A stretch of DNA of 52,689 nucleotides from Pseudomonadota bacterium. GTDB lineage: Bacteria; Desulfobacterota; Syntrophorhabdia; Syntrophorhabdales; Syntrophorhabdaceae. Every line of letters begins with the position of its first letter. Position 1 is the first letter of the stretch. Location of the stretch: positions 1 to 52,689 of the forward strand of contig JAPLKB010000040.1 in NCBI GenBank assembly GCA_026388275.1. Direction: 5' to 3'. Below, piece by piece: positions 4,678 through 52,636 of this stretch. The translations under genes and the position numbers were made by a program. Under the pieces are notes generated by a model, which saw only the letters and a program-made list of their open reading frames with translations, had not been told where the DNA came from and ran no database searches.

Positions 4678-4717
4678 TCATTACGTTTTCTATTCTTCCA
4701 GGTTTTTTCCTTTGGAC

Positions 4718-4945
4718 GGTCAACGGCATGGAAGGAATGTCCATCTGCGGCGGTCTGCTTCGCCTTGCGATCCTCCGACGTACGTTGAGTACGCCTCCGG
4801 CCTGCAAAGCTTACAGCCCATCCACATCTGAGCCATTCCTCCCATGCCGTTGACCACTCAATCCGGATTCACATAGGCCTCTACCACGCATATGTGAATC
4901 CGGAAATAAAAAGACAGATGTCTTCATTTTCAAGATTTTATTCTC
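4718..4945 (+). repeat. Dispersed structured repeat, copy 1
   Basis: A non-coding element that recurs at 15861-16110. The outer arms 4718-4739 and 4834-4855 form a 22-bp inverted repeat with one mismatch. Inside is a 77-base core (4754-4830) differing at only about six positions from copy 2, with a small CGTAC/GTACG hairpin. Two more hairpins follow: a perfect 13-bp stem (4863-4875 with 4891-4903) and AAGACA/TGTCTT (4911-4924). The arms differ in sequence between copies yet remain complementary, which suggests selection for RNA or DNA structure. It lies directly after acsB and could act in 3'-end formation or be a MITE/REP-like mobile repeat. The next 200 bases up to the following gene are AT-rich and show nothing I recognise. 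Confidence 0.7.
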
Positions 4946-9002: not shown

Positions 9003-9265
9003 GTAAAACCTCCTTGTTTAATGTTTTTCCAAAATATCTGATTCAACTTTACATAAAAACAAACTTCTATCCCTCCCTTGTAAAAACAAACCTTTTTCTA
9101 TTTTTCCCCTCCACCTCCTTTAAAAATGAATTATGCTTTACAAAATCCTATTATGCCTGTACATCTAAGTTCCTTACTCAATAACCATTTTTGCTCTATC
9201 ACGCACATTTATTTTGCATATCTTATCCATGATTAACATTTGTATAACATTAAAAGTTTTTTGTC

Positions 9266-9348
9266 TGTAGGATAAGTAATACAAATTGTGTAGGTAAATA
9301 TAGAATATTTTAGTAGCCTGATACTTACATTGCGTGTAGTCAGTGCCA
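9266..9348. promoter_or_regulatory. Phased array of TGTAGGA boxes (cluster 1)
   Basis: Boxes start at 9266 (TGTAGGATAAG), 9289 (TGTAGGTAAATA), 9312 (AGTAGCCTGATAC, one mismatch in the core) and 9335 (TGTAGTCAG). The spacing is exactly 23 bp each time, close to two helical turns, so a regulator would bind on one face of the DNA. The cluster lies about 265-345 bases upstream of the PEP-CTERM gene, between it and the riboswitch. The same box occurs upstream of every PEP-CTERM-type gene in this window. Confidence 0.65.
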
Positions 9349-9446
9349 CCACTTTTTTGCCCTCCTTTTTTATAGTTTTAGAATATCACGCTGTATTTCC
9401 TTAAAGTTTCCATAAAAGGTTTTCACAAAACAGCATGATGTCCATT

Positions 9447-9543
9447 TTGGCAACCCGGCTGTCTCACTTGTAAAAAATTATCTTAGTGTTTGAGACCCGT
9501 TGGCTTTCCGTCCCATCCTCACGAATGGTTTGGCTTTATCATA
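9447..9543 (-). promoter_or_regulatory. GEMM-I (cyclic-di-GMP-I) riboswitch aptamer
   Basis: On the minus strand the sequence reads AAAGCCAAACC, then CCATTC-GTGA-GGATGG (a stem with a GNRA tetraloop), then GGGACGGAAAGCC, a GGGTCTC...GAGAC helix and CCGGGTTGCC. These are the conserved blocks of the GEMM-I fold. At the position equivalent to G20 of the Vibrio Vc2 aptamer the base is G, as in c-di-GMP binders rather than the cGAMP-sensing variants. It lies 445 bases upstream of the PEP-CTERM gene at 8322-9002 on the same strand. No clear terminator follows the aptamer, so the expression platform is unknown. Confidence 0.82.
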
Positions 9544-9579
9544 ACAGTTAACAATGTAAAACAATTTGAATTTATTGTA

Positions 9580-9640
9580 TGTAGGATAAGTACTACAGTT
9601 TGTGTAGGACAAGTTGATAAAATGTTGTAATCCGGTGTCA
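9580..9640. promoter_or_regulatory. TGTAGGA box array (cluster 2)
   Basis: Boxes at 9580 (TGTAGGATAAGTAC), 9603 (TGTAGGACAAG) and 9626 (TGTAATCCGG, degenerate) again repeat every 23 bp. The cluster is immediately upstream of the riboswitch leader on the minus strand. The promoter of that transcript is therefore probably here, with the boxes as activator sites. Confidence 0.6.
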
Positions 9641-13861: not shown

Positions 13862-13937
13862 AACAAACCTCCTAAATTGATTTGGTCTGTATGGGATCTT
13901 CCGGAAGAATGAAAACCTGTTACCCAGTCATTTTGTC

Positions 13938-14010
13938 ATGCCAGCCCGGTTGTCTCATGCAAGACCTGTTAGCTTTCCGTCCTACCCTAACGGATAGTTT
14001 GACTTCATCG
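13938..14010 (-). promoter_or_regulatory. GEMM-I (cyclic-di-GMP-I) riboswitch aptamer
   Basis: Minus strand: GAAGTCAAACT, a CTATCC-GTTA-GGGTAG stem, AGGACGGAAAGCT, a GTCT-TGCATG-AGAC hairpin and CCGGGCTGGC. This follows the GEMM-I architecture block by block and parallels the aptamer at 9447-9543. G is found at the position of Vc2 G20, which fits c-di-GMP. The start codon of the 47-residue peptide is 77 bases downstream. CTTCCGGAAG in that interval is the only local palindrome, and no terminator is evident, so control may act on translation. Confidence 0.78.
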
Positions 14011-14049
14011 TAATTGCCTTATCATGCTTAACAAATAAATTTATTTTCA

Positions 14050-14129
14050 TGTAGGATTATTACGACATCCAGTGTAGGACAATTACACCTCGTGTAGTAT
14101 ATTTACCACATCAAATGTAGGAAATCTAC
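14050..14129. promoter_or_regulatory. Array of four TGTAGGA boxes
   Basis: Boxes at 14050 (TGTAGGATTATTAC), 14073 (TGTAGGACAATTAC), 14093 (TGTAGTATATTTAC) and 14116 (TGTAGGAAATCTAC). The spacings are 23, 20 and 23 bp. Each box has the weak symmetry GTA-N7-TAC. The array sits just upstream of the riboswitch leader on the minus strand and is the clearest copy of the element in the window. Confidence 0.72.
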
Positions 14130-14480: not shown

Positions 14481-14609
14481 AGGTTCATTTGTTCCTTTGC
14501 AGCAAATTGAAATAAAAAGAGGGAGAACAGGGATTTAAAAATGAAAAAATATGTCTTTTTTTATGCTGTTGACCCGTCAAAGAACAAACCCGGGATACAT
14601 TGAAGAGCG

Positions 14610-15809: not shown

Positions 15810-15860
15810 GCAGCCTTCCTTGGTTTTTAATTTCTTGCTGATCTATGTTGTTATCTTGGT

Positions 15861-16110
15861 CGGTCAGCGGCATATCGGCAATTCTGATCTGCAGCGATCT
15901 GCTTCGCCTTGCGATCCTCCGATGTACATTGAGTACGTCTACGGCCTGCAAATCTCACAGCCCATCCACATCTGCAAAATTGCTGCTCAACACTGCCTTC
16001 GCAATTAAATCTTGCCGATATGTCGCCGCCCACTCAACCCGGATTCACATATACGTTATGTGAATCCGGAAATAAAACAACATATGTTTTATTTTCAAAA
16101 TTCTTTTCTC
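15861..16110 (+). repeat. Dispersed structured repeat, copy 2
   Basis: Second copy of the element at 4718-4945, same orientation. The 77-base core (15898-15974) is about 92% identical. The outer arms (15867-15881 with 16012-16029) pair with a 3-base bulge but have a different sequence from copy 1. The 13-bp CCGGATTCACATA hairpin is perfect (16039-16051 with 16057-16069). The last hairpin reads TAAAACA/TGTTTTA where copy 1 has AAGACA/TGTCTT. It lies inside the chemosensory operon, between cheB and the phosphatase gene, and is antisense to that transcript. Confidence 0.7.
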
Positions 16111-47322: not shown

Positions 47323-47418
47323 AATAAATTATGGTAAAGGGGAAAGGTGATAATGTCAAGGATAATTGCTGACCACTGTATCCTTACTGGCTTCTGCCTT
47401 TTTTTAATTTTAATTCGA

Positions 47419-47453
47419 ATAAACCCCCAGTGGGTTTTCCATTAGGGGTTTAT
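47419..47453. terminator. Array hairpin 1
   Basis: ATAAACCCCCAGTGG and CCATTAGGGGTTTAT pair imperfectly around GTTTT, 90 bases after the first paralogue. It is followed by a T-rich stretch on the plus side. Confidence 0.7.
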
Positions 47454-47542
47454 GTTATTTCTTCTATATGTATTGTTTGAAAATTAGTAAAAAAAGAGTT
47501 TCGGAATTTTATTCTCCAGCACATTCTCCTGAAACATTTGTT

Positions 47543-48223
47543 TTAAACTACTTTTTTTCTTATAAACCCTACACCCATTAATCCGGCACCGAGAAGAAGA
47601 ATCGTAGGTGGAATAGGGACGGGGGTATTATATACATCACCACTATTGGCTCTCATACTATTAAAAAAATCTGGTTCAGCAACGCTCAATGAAGTCTCAA
47701 AGCTTATATTTAAATTGCCAACCCAAGCACTTTTTGTATCAAAACCGAAATACGAAACTAAAGTAGGGTCCTTTGTATCTGATAAATCTGATATGGCAGC
47801 TTTAAAAGTTGAAGAAGTTACAGGAGAAACCATTGCATTGCCAAGAATTCCGCTCATCAATACAGTACCTTCAGGTAATAGTTCAGAACCATCAGGTTTG
47901 TTGACACCGCCAGTTATCGTAATCGATCCGCCCGGTCCCCAACTCCATCCGGAAATATGATCGCCCGATGTAAAATTTAACATACCATTTATAATTACCA
48001 ATGATATGCTTGGACCAACATCAGGAATTGCAGTGATTCTATCAACCCCTAAAGATGTTCCGATTAAACGATTTGTTTCCATTAAATAATTAATTTTTCC
48101 GGAACTATTGACATGATTGACATCAAAATCAAGCATCGTATATGTCGTATTTACTGCACTGGCAATCAATGGAACAAACATTAGGCTGATAATAGCCAGA
48201 ATCGTTAAAAATCCTTTTTTCAT
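47543..48223 (-). CDS. Secreted PEP-CTERM-type protein, array paralogue 1
   Basis: A 226-residue exported protein of unknown function. Signal peptide MKKGFLTILAIISLMFVPLIASA, then a beta-rich body (GISGWSWGPGG-like HISGWSWGPGGSITITGGV, VSYFGFDTKSAWVGNLNISF) and the sorting signal VPIPPTIL-LLGAGLMGVGF-IRKKVV. It has diverged most from the other three (its middle carries NHVNSSGKINYLMETNRLIG). AGGGGTGA precedes the ATG. Expected at the outer surface or in matrix after exosortase processing. Confidence 0.83.
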   Translation of the reverse strand: MKKGFLTILAIISLMFVPLIASAVNTTYTMLDFDVNHVNSSGKINYLMETNRLIGTSLGVDRITAIPDVGPSISLVIINGMLNFTSGDHISGWSWGPGGSITITGGVNKPDGSELLPEGTVLMSGILGNAMVSPVTSSTFKAAISDLSDTKDPTLVSYFGFDTKSAWVGNLNISFETSLSVAEPDFFNSMRANSGDVYNTPVPIPPTILLLGAGLMGVGFIRKKVV

Positions 48224-48297
48224 ACTTTGTTCACCCCTTTCGAATATTATTTCTAAACTATAGAGACTTTATCTTAATACTTTTTTATCAGTAGCAT

Positions 48298-48412
48298 GTG
48301 TAATTTACACTTTATGCATTCGGTTGTATGTAGGAAAAGTACAGAATGTTGTGTAGGACATGTTATACAATGTTAAGCTATGTAAGATTACATTATTGGA
48401 TAAGTTGTGTAG
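48298..48412. promoter_or_regulatory. Operator and TGTAGGA boxes of paralogue 1
   Basis: A perfect GTGTAATTTACAC palindrome (48298-48310) is followed 25 bases on (centre to box) by TGTAGGAAAAGTAC at 48329 and TGTAGGACATGTTATAC at 48352, 23 bp apart. Weaker relatives are at 48381 (TGTAAGATTAC) and 48408 (TGTAGTCATGG). The set begins 75 bases upstream of the start codon, so the promoter of the gene overlaps it. Confidence 0.65.
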
Positions 48413-48420
48413 TCATGGGT

Positions 48421-48764
48421 ATTTACCCTGGCCGCGAGAACCCTGGAGGATGGATATTCAGTGATATCTTATCTCGGCTATCCAGAGTACCCAGACGTTA
48501 ATTCGATACATGTAAACATACAAAAGGGGTGCTTGTATTATTCCAGATAAGATCAATAATAGTGAGTTAAGTCGCAAGATGTATTCCTGTCCCGGATATC
48601 TCTTTTATAAAACGGTGGAAGTCCGGCAGACACAAATATTTATGATGAAAATGCAGTAAGGATGAACATAGGTAGGGTCAGGATTAAAGGGAGTTGGGCA
48701 ACAGGCCCTCAATTGGTGATCCCTATACCCTTACTGACCTCTGCCTTTTTTTATTTTAATTCGA
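48421..48764 (+). repeat. Conserved array spacer A
   Basis: About 340 bases with close copies at 49730-50072 and 51049-51404. Indels between copies are not multiples of three (for example at AAAACGGTGG/AAAAACGGTGG and a 4-base insertion near 48680), so it is not a conserved protein gene. It runs from the box region to the next hairpin and could be a divergent non-coding transcript or a decayed gene. Confidence 0.6.
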
Positions 48765-48799
48765 ATAAACCCCAAATGGGTTTTCCATTTGGGGTTTAT
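48765..48799. terminator. Array hairpin 2
   Basis: A perfect 15-bp stem (ATAAACCCCAAATGG with its complement) around GTTTT, followed on the plus side by TATATTTTTTATTT. It lies 94 bases after paralogue 2 on the minus strand and also ends spacer A on the plus strand. Confidence 0.8.
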
Positions 48800-48892
48800 A
48801 TTTTTTATTTCTATGTATTACTCTTTATGTATATTTTTTGAAAAAGGGGTTCTTGAATTTATTCTCCAGCTCATTCTCCTGAAACATTTGTT

Positions 48893-49564
48893 TTAAAATA
48901 CTCTTTTTCTTACAAATCCTATACCTATTAACCCGGCACCGAGAAGAAGAATTGGAGGTGGGATAGGGACGAGGGCGTTATATACATCACCACTCCAGAC
49001 TGAAGTGCTATTAAAAAAATCTCCTATAATAACGCCCCTTAGTGTCGAAAAGCTTATATCGAAATTGCCAGCCCAGGCACTATTTGTATCAAAACCGAAA
49101 TACGAAACCAAAGTAGGGTTCTTTGTATCTGAGAATTCTGATACGGCAACTTTAAACCTTGGACCTGAAGGAACAACCTCTGCACTGTTGAAACTTCCGC
49201 TCATCAACATAGCGCCAATAGGTAATAGTTGAGAACCATCAGGGTTTTTGACACCACCGGTTATCGTAATAGATCCGCCCGAGCCCCAGCTCCATCCGGA
49301 AATATGATTACCCGATGTAAAATTTAACATACCATTTGTAATTTCCAATGATGTGCTGTTACCATAATCATCACTTGCAGTGATTCTATCAACCCTCAAC
49401 CCTGTTCCATTTAACTTTAAGTAATACGGTCCATCTAAATTTAAATAACTAATGGTTCCGCCGTCAATGACATCAAAATCAAGTGATGTATATTCTGCAC
49501 TGGCAATCAATGGAACAAACATTAGGCTGATCATAGCCAGAATCGTTAAGAATCCTTTTTTCAT
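48893..49564 (-). CDS. Secreted PEP-CTERM-type protein, array paralogue 2
   Basis: About 223 residues. Signal peptide MKKGFLTILAMISLMFVPLI to ASA, body with HISGWSWGSGGSITITGGV and SYFGFDTNSAWAGNFDISF, and VPIPPPIL-LLGAGLIGIGF-VRKRVF at the C-terminus. The start is the ATG at 49564, which has AGGGGTGA ahead of it and matches the other paralogues. An in-frame ATG 42 bases earlier lacks a ribosome binding site and would place residues before the signal peptide. Function unknown, expected surface or matrix location. Confidence 0.83.
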   Translation of the reverse strand: MKKGFLTILAMISLMFVPLIASAEYTSLDFDVIDGGTISYLNLDGPYYLKLNGTGLRVDRITASDDYGNSTSLEITNGMLNFTSGNHISGWSWGSGGSITITGGVKNPDGSQLLPIGAMLMSGSFNSAEVVPSGPRFKVAVSEFSDTKNPTLVSYFGFDTNSAWAGNFDISFSTLRGVIIGDFFNSTSVWSGDVYNALVPIPPPILLLGAGLIGIGFVRKRVF

Positions 49565-49637
49565 ACTTTGTTCACCCCTTTCAAATATTATTTTTGTTTC
49601 TATCATGTCTAATTTACACTTTATGCGTTTGATTGTA

Positions 49638-49675
49638 TGTAGGAAAAGTACAGAATGTTGTGTAGGACATGTTAT
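49638..49675. promoter_or_regulatory. TGTAGGA boxes of paralogue 2
   Basis: TGTAGGAAAAGTAC at 49638 and TGTAGGACATGTTATAC at 49661, 23 bp apart. The upstream palindrome is damaged here (TCTAATTTACAC). Confidence 0.65.
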
Positions 49676-49729
49676 ACAATGTTATGCGTTGTAAGATTAC
49701 ATTATTGGATAAGTTGTGTAGTCATGGGT

Positions 49730-50072
49730 GTTTATACAGGCCGCGAGAACCCTGGAGGATGGATATTCAGTGATATCTTATCCCGGCTATCCAGAATATT
49801 CAGACGTTAATTCGATACATAAAAAGCCTACAAAGGGGGCGCTTGTGTTATCCCAGATAAAATAAATAATAGGGAGTTTACTCGCAAGATGTATTCCTGT
49901 CCCAGGTATCTCTTTTATAAAAACGGTGGAAGTCCGGCAGACACAAATATTTATGATGAAGATGTGGCAAGGATGAACATAGGGTCAGGATCAAATGGAG
50001 TTGGGCAACAGGCCATCAATTGCTGATTCCTATGCCCTTACTGGCTTCTGCCTTTTTTTAATTTTAATTCGA
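49730..50072 (+). repeat. Conserved array spacer B
   Basis: Copy of spacer A. It contains GGTGGAAGTCCGGCAGACAC, then GGGTCAGGATCAAATGG and AGTTGGGCAACAGGCC. The last two also occur, slightly changed, at 9655-9705 on the minus strand. Confidence 0.6.
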
Positions 50073-50107
50073 ATAAACCCCTAATGGGTTTTCCATTAGA
50101 GGTTTAT
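50073..50107. terminator. Array hairpin 3
   Basis: ATAAACCCCTAATGG pairs with CCATTAGAGGTTTAT around GTTTT with one mismatch, 94 bases after paralogue 3. Confidence 0.75.
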
Positions 50108-50200
50108 GATTTTTGCTTCTATGTATTACTCTCTATATATATTGTTTGCAAAAGGGGTTCTTAATTTTATTCTCCAGCTGATTCTCCTGAAACATTTGTT

Positions 50201-50884
50201 TTAAAATACTCTTTTTCTTATTACCCCTATACCCATTAACCCGGCACCGAGAAGAAGAACCGATGGTGGAATAGGGACAGGGACTGGGGTATTTACTACA
50301 TTACCACTTAAGACCGTAGTACTATTAAAAAAATCTCCTATAATAACGCCCCTTGGTGTCAAAAAGCTTATATTGAAATCGCCAACCCAAGCACTATTTG
50401 GATCAAAACCAAAATACGAAACCAAAGTAGGGTTCTTTGTATCTGAGAATTCTGACACGGCAACTTTAAACCTTGGACCTGAAGGAAAAACTTCTGCGCT
50501 GCTAAAACTTCCGCTCATCAATATAGTACCATTAGGTAATAGTTGAGAACCATAAGAATCTTTGACACCACCAGTTATCGTAATCGATCCACCCGGTCCC
50601 CAACTCCATCCGGATCCGGGAATATGATCACCTGATGTAAAATTTAACATACCATTTGTAATTTCCAATGATTTGCTTGGACCATTATCAGAAATTGCAG
50701 TGATTCTATCAACTACTAACCCTGTTCCCTTTAAATAATATTTTCCATTTACATCTAAATAACTAATGGTTCCACCATCAGTGACATCAAAATCAAGTGC
50801 CGTATACGTATATTCTGCACTGGCAACCAATGGAACAAACATTAGGCTGATAATAGCCAAAATCAATAAAAATCCTTTTTTCAT
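50201..50884 (-). CDS. Secreted PEP-CTERM-type protein, array paralogue 3
   Basis: A 227-residue exported protein. Signal peptide ending VASA, body with GTISYLDVNGKYYLKGTG, SGWSWGPGGSITITGGV and SYFGFDPNSAWVGDFNISF, and PVPIPPSV-LLLGAGLMGIGV-IRKRVF. It is closest to paralogue 4, sharing the extra IPGSGW and PVPVPIPP insertions, which suggests that this pair arose by the latest duplication. Confidence 0.83.
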   Translation of the reverse strand: MKKGFLLILAIISLMFVPLVASAEYTYTALDFDVTDGGTISYLDVNGKYYLKGTGLVVDRITAISDNGPSKSLEITNGMLNFTSGDHIPGSGWSWGPGGSITITGGVKDSYGSQLLPNGTILMSGSFSSAEVFPSGPRFKVAVSEFSDTKNPTLVSYFGFDPNSAWVGDFNISFLTPRGVIIGDFFNSTTVLSGNVVNTPVPVPIPPSVLLLGAGLMGIGVIRKRVF

Positions 50885-50926
50885 ACTTTATTCACCCCTT
50901 TCAAATTTTATTTTTGTTTCTAACAT

Positions 50927-50998
50927 GTGTAATTTACACTTTATGCATTTGGTTGTATGTAGGATAAGTACAGAATGTTGTGTAGGACATGTTATACA
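50927..50998. promoter_or_regulatory. Operator and TGTAGGA boxes of paralogue 3
   Basis: GTGTAATTTACAC palindrome (50927-50939), then TGTAGGATAAGTAC at 50958 and TGTAGGACATGTTATAC at 50981, 23 bp apart. Confidence 0.65.
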
Positions 50999-51048
50999 AT
51001 GTTAAGCTTTGTAAGATTACATTATTGGATAAGTTATGTAGTCATGGG

Positions 51049-51404
51049 TATTTATACAAGTAGCGAGGGCTCTGGAAGGTTGGCTATTCAGGAATACCTT
51101 ATCTCGGCTATCCAGAATATTCAGACGTTAATTCGATACATAAAAAGCCTACAAAGGGGGCGCTTGTGTTATTCCAGATAAAATAAATAATAGGGAGTTT
51201 ACTCGCAAGATGTATTCCTGTCCCGGGTATCTCTTTTATAAAAAATGGTGGAAGTCCGGCAGACACAAATATTTATGATGAAAATGCGATGAAGGTAAAT
51301 ATGGGGTCAGGATCAAATGGAGTTGGGCAACAGGCCGTCAATTGCTGATTCCTATGCCCTTGCTGGCTTCTGTCTTTTTTTAATTTTAATTCGAATAAAC
51401 CCCC
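51049..51404 (+). repeat. Conserved array spacer C
   Basis: Third copy of the spacer. Its left third has a different reading (GTAGCGAGGGCTCTGGAAGG). The right part matches spacer B closely apart from small indels. Confidence 0.6.
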
Positions 51405-51429
51405 AATGAGTTTTCCATTAGGGGTTTAT
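51405..51429. terminator. Array hairpin 4
   Basis: ATAAACCCCCAATGAG with its partial complement ending TTAGGGGTTTAT (extends to about 51429), 100 bases after paralogue 4. Less perfect than the other three. Confidence 0.65.
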
Positions 51430-51528
51430 GTTTTTTGCTTCTATGTTTTACTCTCTATATATATTGTTTGAAAAAGGGGTTCTTGAATTTATTCTCCAGC
51501 TCATTCTCCTGAAACATTTGTTTTAAAC

Positions 51529-52212
51529 TTATCTTTTTCTTACAAATCCTATACCTATTAACCCGGCACCGAGAAGAAGAACCGTAGGTGGAATAGGGAC
51601 GGGAACGGGGGTATTTACTACATTACCACTTAAGACCGTAGTACTTTTAAAAGTATTTCCTATTAAAACGTTTTTTGTCAAAAAGCTTATATTGAAATCG
51701 CCAACCCAAGCACTTTTTGGATCAAAACCGAAATACGAAACTAAATCAGGGTCCTTTGTATCTAAGAATTCTGATACGGCAACTTTAAACCTTGGGCCTG
51801 AAGGGTAAACTTCTGCGCTGTTAAAACTTCCGCTCATCAATATAGTACCATCAGGTAATAGTTGAGAACCATAAGAATCTTTGACACCACCAGTTATCGT
51901 AATCGATCCACCCGGTCCCCAGCTCCATCCGGATCCTGGAATATGATCACCCGATATAAAATTTAACATACCATTTGTAATTTCCAACGATTTGCTTGGA
52001 CCAACATCAGCAATTGCAGTGATTCTATCAACCCTTAATCCTGTTCCATTTAACTTTAAATAATATGTTCCATTTACATCTAAATAACTAATGGTTCCGC
52101 CATCAATGACATCAAAATCAAGTGATGTATATGTCGTATTTACTGCACTGGCAACCAATGGAACAAACATTAGGCTGATCATAACCAGAATCGTTAAAAA
52201 TCCTTTTTTCAT
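51529..52212 (-). CDS. Secreted PEP-CTERM-type protein, array paralogue 4
   Basis: A 227-residue exported protein: signal peptide to VASA, body with YLDVNGTYYLKLNGTGLRVD, SGWSWGPGGSITITGGV and SYFGFDPKSAWVGDFNISF, and the C-terminal PVPIPPTV-LLLGAGLIGIGF-VRKR. It ends right after the basic residues, two or three residues shorter than its siblings. AGGGGTGA precedes the ATG. Unknown function, expected surface location. Confidence 0.83.
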   Translation of the reverse strand: MKKGFLTILVMISLMFVPLVASAVNTTYTSLDFDVIDGGTISYLDVNGTYYLKLNGTGLRVDRITAIADVGPSKSLEITNGMLNFISGDHIPGSGWSWGPGGSITITGGVKDSYGSQLLPDGTILMSGSFNSAEVYPSGPRFKVAVSEFLDTKDPDLVSYFGFDPKSAWVGDFNISFLTKNVLIGNTFKSTTVLSGNVVNTPVPVPIPPTVLLLGAGLIGIGFVRKR

Positions 52213-52298
52213 ACTTTGTTCACCCCTTTCATATATTATTTCTAAACTGTAGAGATATTATCTCTCTCTTTGCCTTAATACTTTTTTATCAGTAACAT

Positions 52299-52370
52299 GT
52301 GTAATTTACACTTTATGCATTTGATTGTATGTAGGAAAAGTACAGAATGTTGTGTAGGATATGTTATACA
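52299..52370. promoter_or_regulatory. Operator and TGTAGGA boxes of paralogue 4
   Basis: GTGTAATTTACAC palindrome (52299-52311), TGTAGGAAAAGTAC at 52330 and TGTAGGATATGTTATAC at 52353, again 23 bp apart. This unit has lost the conserved spacer beyond 52430. Confidence 0.65.
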
Positions 52371-52636
52371 ATATTATGCTTTATAAAACTACATTATTGG
52401 ATAAACTGTGTAGTCACGGCCATTTATATGGATTAAAGATGAAATCGCCGAGGGAACACACATCTGCATTAGATAAATTCAGTTTGATAGAACAACTCCA
52501 AAAATACATAATTCGTGTCCAATCCGTAAAGATTTGATCACAAATTAGGCTTAATACGATTTTTTAGGGCCGAAAATAGCTCCTAAATGCTATACTATCA
52601 ACGCTTTATGCCATCAAAAATAAAAGGGGCTGTAAA

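Follow-up and report, generated by a model that had tools for sequence, protein, structure and literature searches.

Two copies of a hairpin-forming repeat in the window

The window, by which we mean the whole stretch of 52,689 nucleotides analysed here, carries two copies of an intergenic repeat. In copy 1, located after acsB, a rod-shaped hairpin unit made of outer arms, core and tip occupies positions 4713-4869 of the minus strand and was recognized by our covariance model R1 with 173 bits (fold z -10.6). Its outer arm on the side of the acsB stop codon (4718-4739, minus strand) pairs with the arm on the other side (4834-4855, minus strand), and the tip hairpin GACGTAC/GTACGCC (4777-4795, minus strand) is formed by pairs that covary in the family. 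A CCGGATTCACAT..ATGTGAATCCGG hairpin, read from the sequence, follows at 4863-4903, and a distal AT-rich hairpin (AAGACA/TGTCTT) at 4911-4924. Copy 2, detected with both nhmmer and the covariance model, has its rod at 15857-16045 of the minus strand (fold z -7.1), with one outer arm at 15862-15881 (minus strand), toward the start of the downstream gene (15809, minus strand), and the other at 16012-16030 (minus strand). The 3' arm of this copy is interrupted by an inserted module (..GCTCAACACTGCCTTCGCAATTAAATCTT..) at 15976-16011; a CCGGATTCACAT hairpin (16039-16069) and the distal hairpin TAAAACA/TGTTTTA (16073-16091) complete it.

The original prediction, made from the sequence alone, described two copies sharing a core about 92% identical, flanked by arms that differ and still pair. 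Alignment of the 76-nt cores (4755-4830 and 15899-15974) gave 92.1% identity; the outer arms do differ in sequence while keeping their pairing in both copies, the last hairpin reads AAGACA..TGTCTT in one (4911-4924) and TAAAACA..TGTTTTA in the other (16073-16091), and the tip hairpin changes from GACGTAC/GTACGCC in copy 1 to GATGTAC/GTACGTC in copy 2 with the U-G wobble that had been pointed out. The description of copy 2 was right as to the pairing of its arms and left out the extra module of about 36 nt in the 3' arm. Similarly, the interval proposed for the element was real but did not convey that the CCGGATTCACAT..ATGTGAATCCGG hairpin is also part of it, nor that intact relatives reach about 370 bp.

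The folding of both copies is far beyond chance when compared with dinucleotide shuffles, with z values of -7.5 (copy 1) and -8.5 (copy 2) on the forward strand and of -10.6 and -7.1, respectively, on the opposite strand. Neither copy matched any Rfam 15 family at the gathering score, and a search of the copy 1 region against Rfam by E-value returned a chance-level match only; a known RNA family was therefore rejected as an explanation for the window copies.

Two other repeats were observed in the window. Four tandem, divergent repeats of about 1.3 kb span positions 47364-52426 and contain paralogous ORFs of about 227 amino acids, of which the two that were tested had no Pfam match. A 41-nt motif, TTGTATGTAGGATAAGTAC..TGTAGGACAAGTT, is present at 9261-9301, 9575-9615, 14045-14085, 48324-48364, 49633-49673, 50953-50993 and 52325-52365; it adjoins two predicted c-di-GMP riboswitches (9445-9543 and 13937-14013), is also contained in the tandem repeats, and is a possible shared control site.

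The repeat belongs to a family of MITEs

A DNA search of the 3.5-Mb genome to which the window belongs identified 40 good copies of the repeat, and the covariance model gave 86 matches, reduced to about 56 clear copies after discarding opposite-strand shadows and weak matches. In the sister species (genome G001) the model gave nine matches, shadows included, corresponding to some 5-7 copies. Full copies measure about 370 bp and are bounded by terminal inverted repeats (TIRs), GGTATTGTCAAAAGTT, a pattern that occurs 55 times in the genome of the window, compared with four occurrences of the reversed control pattern. In several copies these ends form facing pairs 360-376 bp apart, and shorter and longer variants exist. 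Several TIR pairs are flanked by 8-bp target duplications, such as aaagagat, agcccctt and gcaggata. When the flanks of two insertions were joined and compared with G001, copy L047 proved to be a 368-bp insertion flanked by GCAGGATA at a site where G001 has a single GCAAGATA, a clean 8-bp duplication; the site of L020 was also empty in G001, though less cleanly. Because of the TIRs, the target duplications and the two sites that are empty in the sister genome, this element family is shown to be a MITE (a non-autonomous transposon) that has multiplied in this lineage, which bears out the earlier suggestion of a non-autonomous mobile repeat. Our literature search found no MITE described in this group.

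Besides the rod, the copies share a CCGG hairpin beside it, and in other genera analogous CCGG stems of different sequence correspond to the CCGGATTCACAT..ATGTGAATCCGG hairpin of copy 1. Alignments of the copies (A1 and A2) contain single-base indels, and it is on these that the argument against a reading frame is based. No TIR was recognizable within three mismatches around either window copy; the G001 orthologue of copy 1 is followed by AACTTTTTGATGACAATACC, a near match to the terminal repeat. Remnants of the element were also observed in the window: a solitary MITE end (..AACTTTTGACAATACC) at 2350-2404, just upstream of acsB, whose end adjoins copy 1, and an apparent deletion derivative at 14505-14600, in which the distal part is joined to GCTGTTGACCCGTCAAAGA and the core is missing. 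In G010, a genome of another genus, some copies (L076-L089 and L033) seem to be inverted pairs joined via their CCGG hairpins.

An autonomous transposon with the ends of the MITE was not found, and the idea that the element moves together with a transposase or another protein was rejected, as the neighbours of the copies include no recurrent family. IS1595 was discarded as a partner since its transposase (PF12762) is absent from both the genome of the window and that of the sister species. A resemblance was seen to the IS256 family (Pfam PF00872): in G027, a genome belonging to the order of the window, one IS256-type transposase locus (L149) has the ends GGTATATTCAAAAGTT / GGTAAAGTCAAATCTT, which are close to those of the MITE. 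However, no IS256-family transposase was found in the genome of the window or in the sister genome, the former being an assembly of 71 contigs from which a repeated IS could be missing. The MITE might be mobilized by an IS256-family transposase supplied from elsewhere, a step that we propose with more reserve than the others.

Possibly exchangeable modules at the tip and in the arms

Some copies of the rod carry additional segments. In L048, L049, L051, L057 and L083 a C-rich insert stands in place of the tip hairpin; it starts with CAATTATTGCCCCC (CATTGATTGCCCCC in L057) and closes with ACAATTG where its far end was seen, and it occupies the same place in the genome of the window and in G010. 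In L054, L060 and L061 that position of the tip is interrupted by another insert, TTTGCCACCCACGTGACAG.., which makes the tip look like a hot spot for insertion or a module open to exchange. In the arm beside CAT, copies L015, L048, L052 and L057 carry a small palindrome, GACCCACAAGTGGGTGCCC (GTACCC in L015), inserted next to the inner end of the arm. A further module, TTTTGCTC.ATACTG..CTCGCAAT.AAACCTTACC-like, is found in the 3' arm of window copy 2 (15976-16011), of L003/L070 and of L057; L041 carries it in the 5' arm, in inverted orientation, an arrangement that points to DNA-level exchange between the arms.

Pairing of the rod is maintained by compensatory change

The interior of the element is a rod-shaped hairpin of about 155 nt with a conserved core, which includes conserved U-G pairs and internal loops, and with arms that are variable yet paired. 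In an alignment of 58 copies from the genome of the window and six relatives, read on the minus strand, the rod has 53 pairs with 91.9% of the cells paired, and 34 of the 53 pairs show double changes; shuffles gave 83.3% and 20.9 pairs, respectively, and none of 500 reached the observed values. As the copies are related, we also applied a tree-aware test, in which substitutions are reconstructed on a tree and their positions randomized (an in-house, R-scape-like procedure and not R-scape itself). Significant covariation was detected for 7 of the 53 stem pairs and for none of the 11,728 others; 18/157, the top-ranking pair outside the list, also lies inside the stem.

Two copies, copy 1 after acsB and L026 (orthologous to L133), have orthologues in G001, as the flanking genes align across the element. 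Within predicted pairs, copy 1 and its orthologue differ by 10 double and 8 one-sided changes, and L026 and L133 by 12 double and 7 one-sided changes, with no pair broken, a comparison in which the structures were derived from the same two sequences, which favours unbroken pairs, and in which a few of the pairs fall in AT-rich flanks. Together, these results show that pairing of the rod is maintained by compensatory change, also in two copies that have stayed in place. Selection on structure had been claimed from the window copies; the compensation is real, although two copies alone are insufficient to show covariation. Further copies, both in the genome of the window and in other genera, do compensate, significantly so when phylogeny is allowed for, and the two options offered originally, a structured RNA or a mobile repeat, are both supported by the evidence at once.

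In the other genomes with a detected acsB, the element is missing from the position after this gene. Since relatives are free of it at this place, the acsB insertion is recent on the scale of the genus, and no old gene-specific role is implied; an acsB-specific role was consequently rejected. In three genomes of one family, a copy lies beside heterodisulfide-reductase-like genes in a shared neighbourhood, with differing arms.

Relatives of the rod across the Desulfobacterota

Model R1 matched 71 of 297 genomes of Desulfobacterota, belonging to 51 genera and often with several copies. These phylum-wide relatives have other arms, for instance GACGGCTTCGTAAAAAGTC with GAGCTTTTTAC..GCCGTC, which are still paired. 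The possibility that the arms come from the target site, through insertion into terminator loops, was rejected, given that arm sequences recur at unrelated sites and in unrelated genomes. No recurrent protein family was found adjoining the copies.

This distribution, extending to lineages in which the TIR of the genome studied here has not been amplified, together with the conserved core, its fixed U-G pairs and its conserved internal loops, would suit a trans-acting ncRNA, in which some copies are independent genes whose rod RNA binds a protein or another RNA and the MITE only spread it. Against this, no promoter was identified, a number of about 56 copies in one genome and some 5-7 in its sister would be unusual, and the copies have no recurrent neighbouring protein; we judge this explanation decidedly improbable.

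Where the left neighbour points at a phylum-wide copy, its stop codon falls between -13 and +9 nt from the edge of the element in 22 of 29 cases, and these copies carry an A-tract before and a T-tract after a GC-rich core. Both features would fit a 3'-end element or bidirectional terminator, a hairpin placed right after stop codons that stops or processes transcripts arriving from either side. The family of the window, however, lacks A/T tracts in its arms and is often close to gene starts, which makes it improbable that such a function accounts for the repeat.

Some members of the family had probably been noticed already in 2009. In Additional file 4 of their report, Aklujkar et al. (2009, PMC2700814) listed for Geobacter metallireducens 24 'predicted short RNA elements', one of which is situated between dapAB and dapL both in this species and in G. 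sulfurreducens. Like the repeat described here, these elements are multicopy and intergenic, and their central palindrome, GRCGTAGCGCTGCTACGCC, is also the tip of R1-matched rods in two genomes (L109 and L164); the window copies have GACGTAC-loop-GTACGCC at this place. The Geobacter elements thus probably belong to the rod family, on a match that rests on one palindrome. The portions of that report concerned with them describe a BLAST-aligned repeat, with no analysis of covariation, strand or mobility.

The minus strand is the one under pairing constraint

The structure had originally been read on the forward strand, and this proved to be wrong: the better-folding strand is the reverse complement, on which G-U exceed A-C mismatches and all 58 aligned copies fold better, by about 19 kcal/mol, into one long rod that includes the core. 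In a symmetric alignment of the arms, for which the pairing script took 62 copies, the forward strand has 114 A-C and 26 G-U mismatches, that is, 114 G-U and 26 A-C on the minus strand. Counted as events on the tree, changes on the minus strand from Watson-Crick (WC) to G-U outnumber those to A-C in the arms (36 vs 16.5, p about 0.008) and in the core (22.5 vs 6.5, p about 0.008), and distinct combinations of column and type in the outer arms, counted per genome and summed over genomes, were 40 for G-U vs 15 for A-C. As the mismatches of the forward strand are mostly A-C, these data show that the strand under pairing constraint is its reverse complement. The phylum-wide relatives show G-U and A-C in balanced numbers (64 vs 54), although it is again this strand that gives the better fold in 27 of 27.

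Such an asymmetry is at odds with quasi-palindrome correction, in which a template switch at replication would rewrite one arm from the other and generate paired changes in the absence of structural selection, as this process gives no reason for G-U to exceed A-C on one strand (p about 0.008, arms and core). The conserved U-G pairs kept at core positions and the common single-step changes from WC through G-U to WC also argue against it. Correction of this kind would fit the many double WC-to-WC changes that fall on single branches (49 in the arms), the near-perfect palindromes with balanced mismatches in the arms of the phylum-wide relatives, and the inverted position in the 5' arm of L041 of a module that several copies carry in the 3' arm. 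On balance we give it little credence as the source of the pairing, and we infer that selection, and not template-switch correction, does all the work.

The wobble asymmetry suits single-stranded DNA (ssDNA) as well as RNA, since DNA tolerates G-T wobbles. The minus strand could then fold during replication or transposition as the substrate of a recombinase or transposase, a role in keeping with the mobility of the element and with the modules swapped at the rod tip and between arms. The orientation of the copies, examined with flanking genes taken from simple ORF calls, bears on this point. In the genome of the window, 25 copies have the minus strand in the same direction as both flanking genes and 11 have it opposed to both (p 0.029), while relative to local GC skew the structured strand has no bias to the G-rich strand (17/32), so that an orientation bias of the kind expected from replication strands was rejected. 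The orientation of the copies and the lack of G-rich-strand bias favour RNA within neighbouring transcripts over an ssDNA signal, and the effect is modest: copy 1 has its structured strand antisense to the genes on either side, and among the phylum-wide relatives the orientation bias is not significant (22 vs 15 in the forward orientation). In addition, TIRs and 8-bp duplications explain mobility with no need for an internal hairpin, and the orthologous copies go on compensating after insertion. An ssDNA hairpin is thus unlikely in our opinion, and we infer that the molecule is RNA.

A mobile element carrying a proposed cis-acting RNA hairpin

We lean, with a little better than even confidence, toward a MITE whose rod is under pairing constraint on the minus strand, is transcribed with its neighbours and acts as a cis RNA hairpin in the manner of ERIC and NEMIS. 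After insertion, the repeat would be transcribed as a segment of an adjacent transcript, with a preference for the sense orientation of the rod, and would act there in cis as a stable RNA hairpin. Its role may be that of an intergenic element serving as a barrier or in processing or stability, in line with what has been reported on ERIC in Yersinia.

ERIC is, like the present repeat, a short, intergenic, MITE-like sequence that folds as one long stem-loop. Its reported action in Yersinia, regulation of adjacent genes in the form of an RNA hairpin (PMC2267715), makes it the nearest documented precedent for a cis-hairpin role. With a 127-bp consensus, ERIC has another size and inhabits other genomes; the resemblance is in kind only; unlike ERIC, the present rod is recognized across many families of another phylum. 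NEMIS (106-158 bp) and YPAL (about 130-169 bp) are also dispersed, hairpin-forming and intergenic, but shorter and from other organisms, and no homology to them was found, nor is any expected (PMC2267715).

Dispersed bacterial repeats are usually taken as debris or as DNA sites. The covariation, the strand-specific excess of wobble pairs and the compensation between orthologues indicate, for the family described here, that the fold of one strand is maintained after insertion. The rod family spans many families of Desulfobacterota, has no Rfam model and probably includes the overlooked element of Geobacter; this probable member would offer a cultured organism for functional testing. A possible, if doubtful, extension is that the rod is a phylum-wide structured RNA older than the current transposon ends, kept functional by compensatory evolution at the loci where it lands. 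If this were true, the MITEs of Desulfobacterota would disperse a ready-made cis-regulatory RNA whose outer arms are free and whose tip modules can be exchanged.
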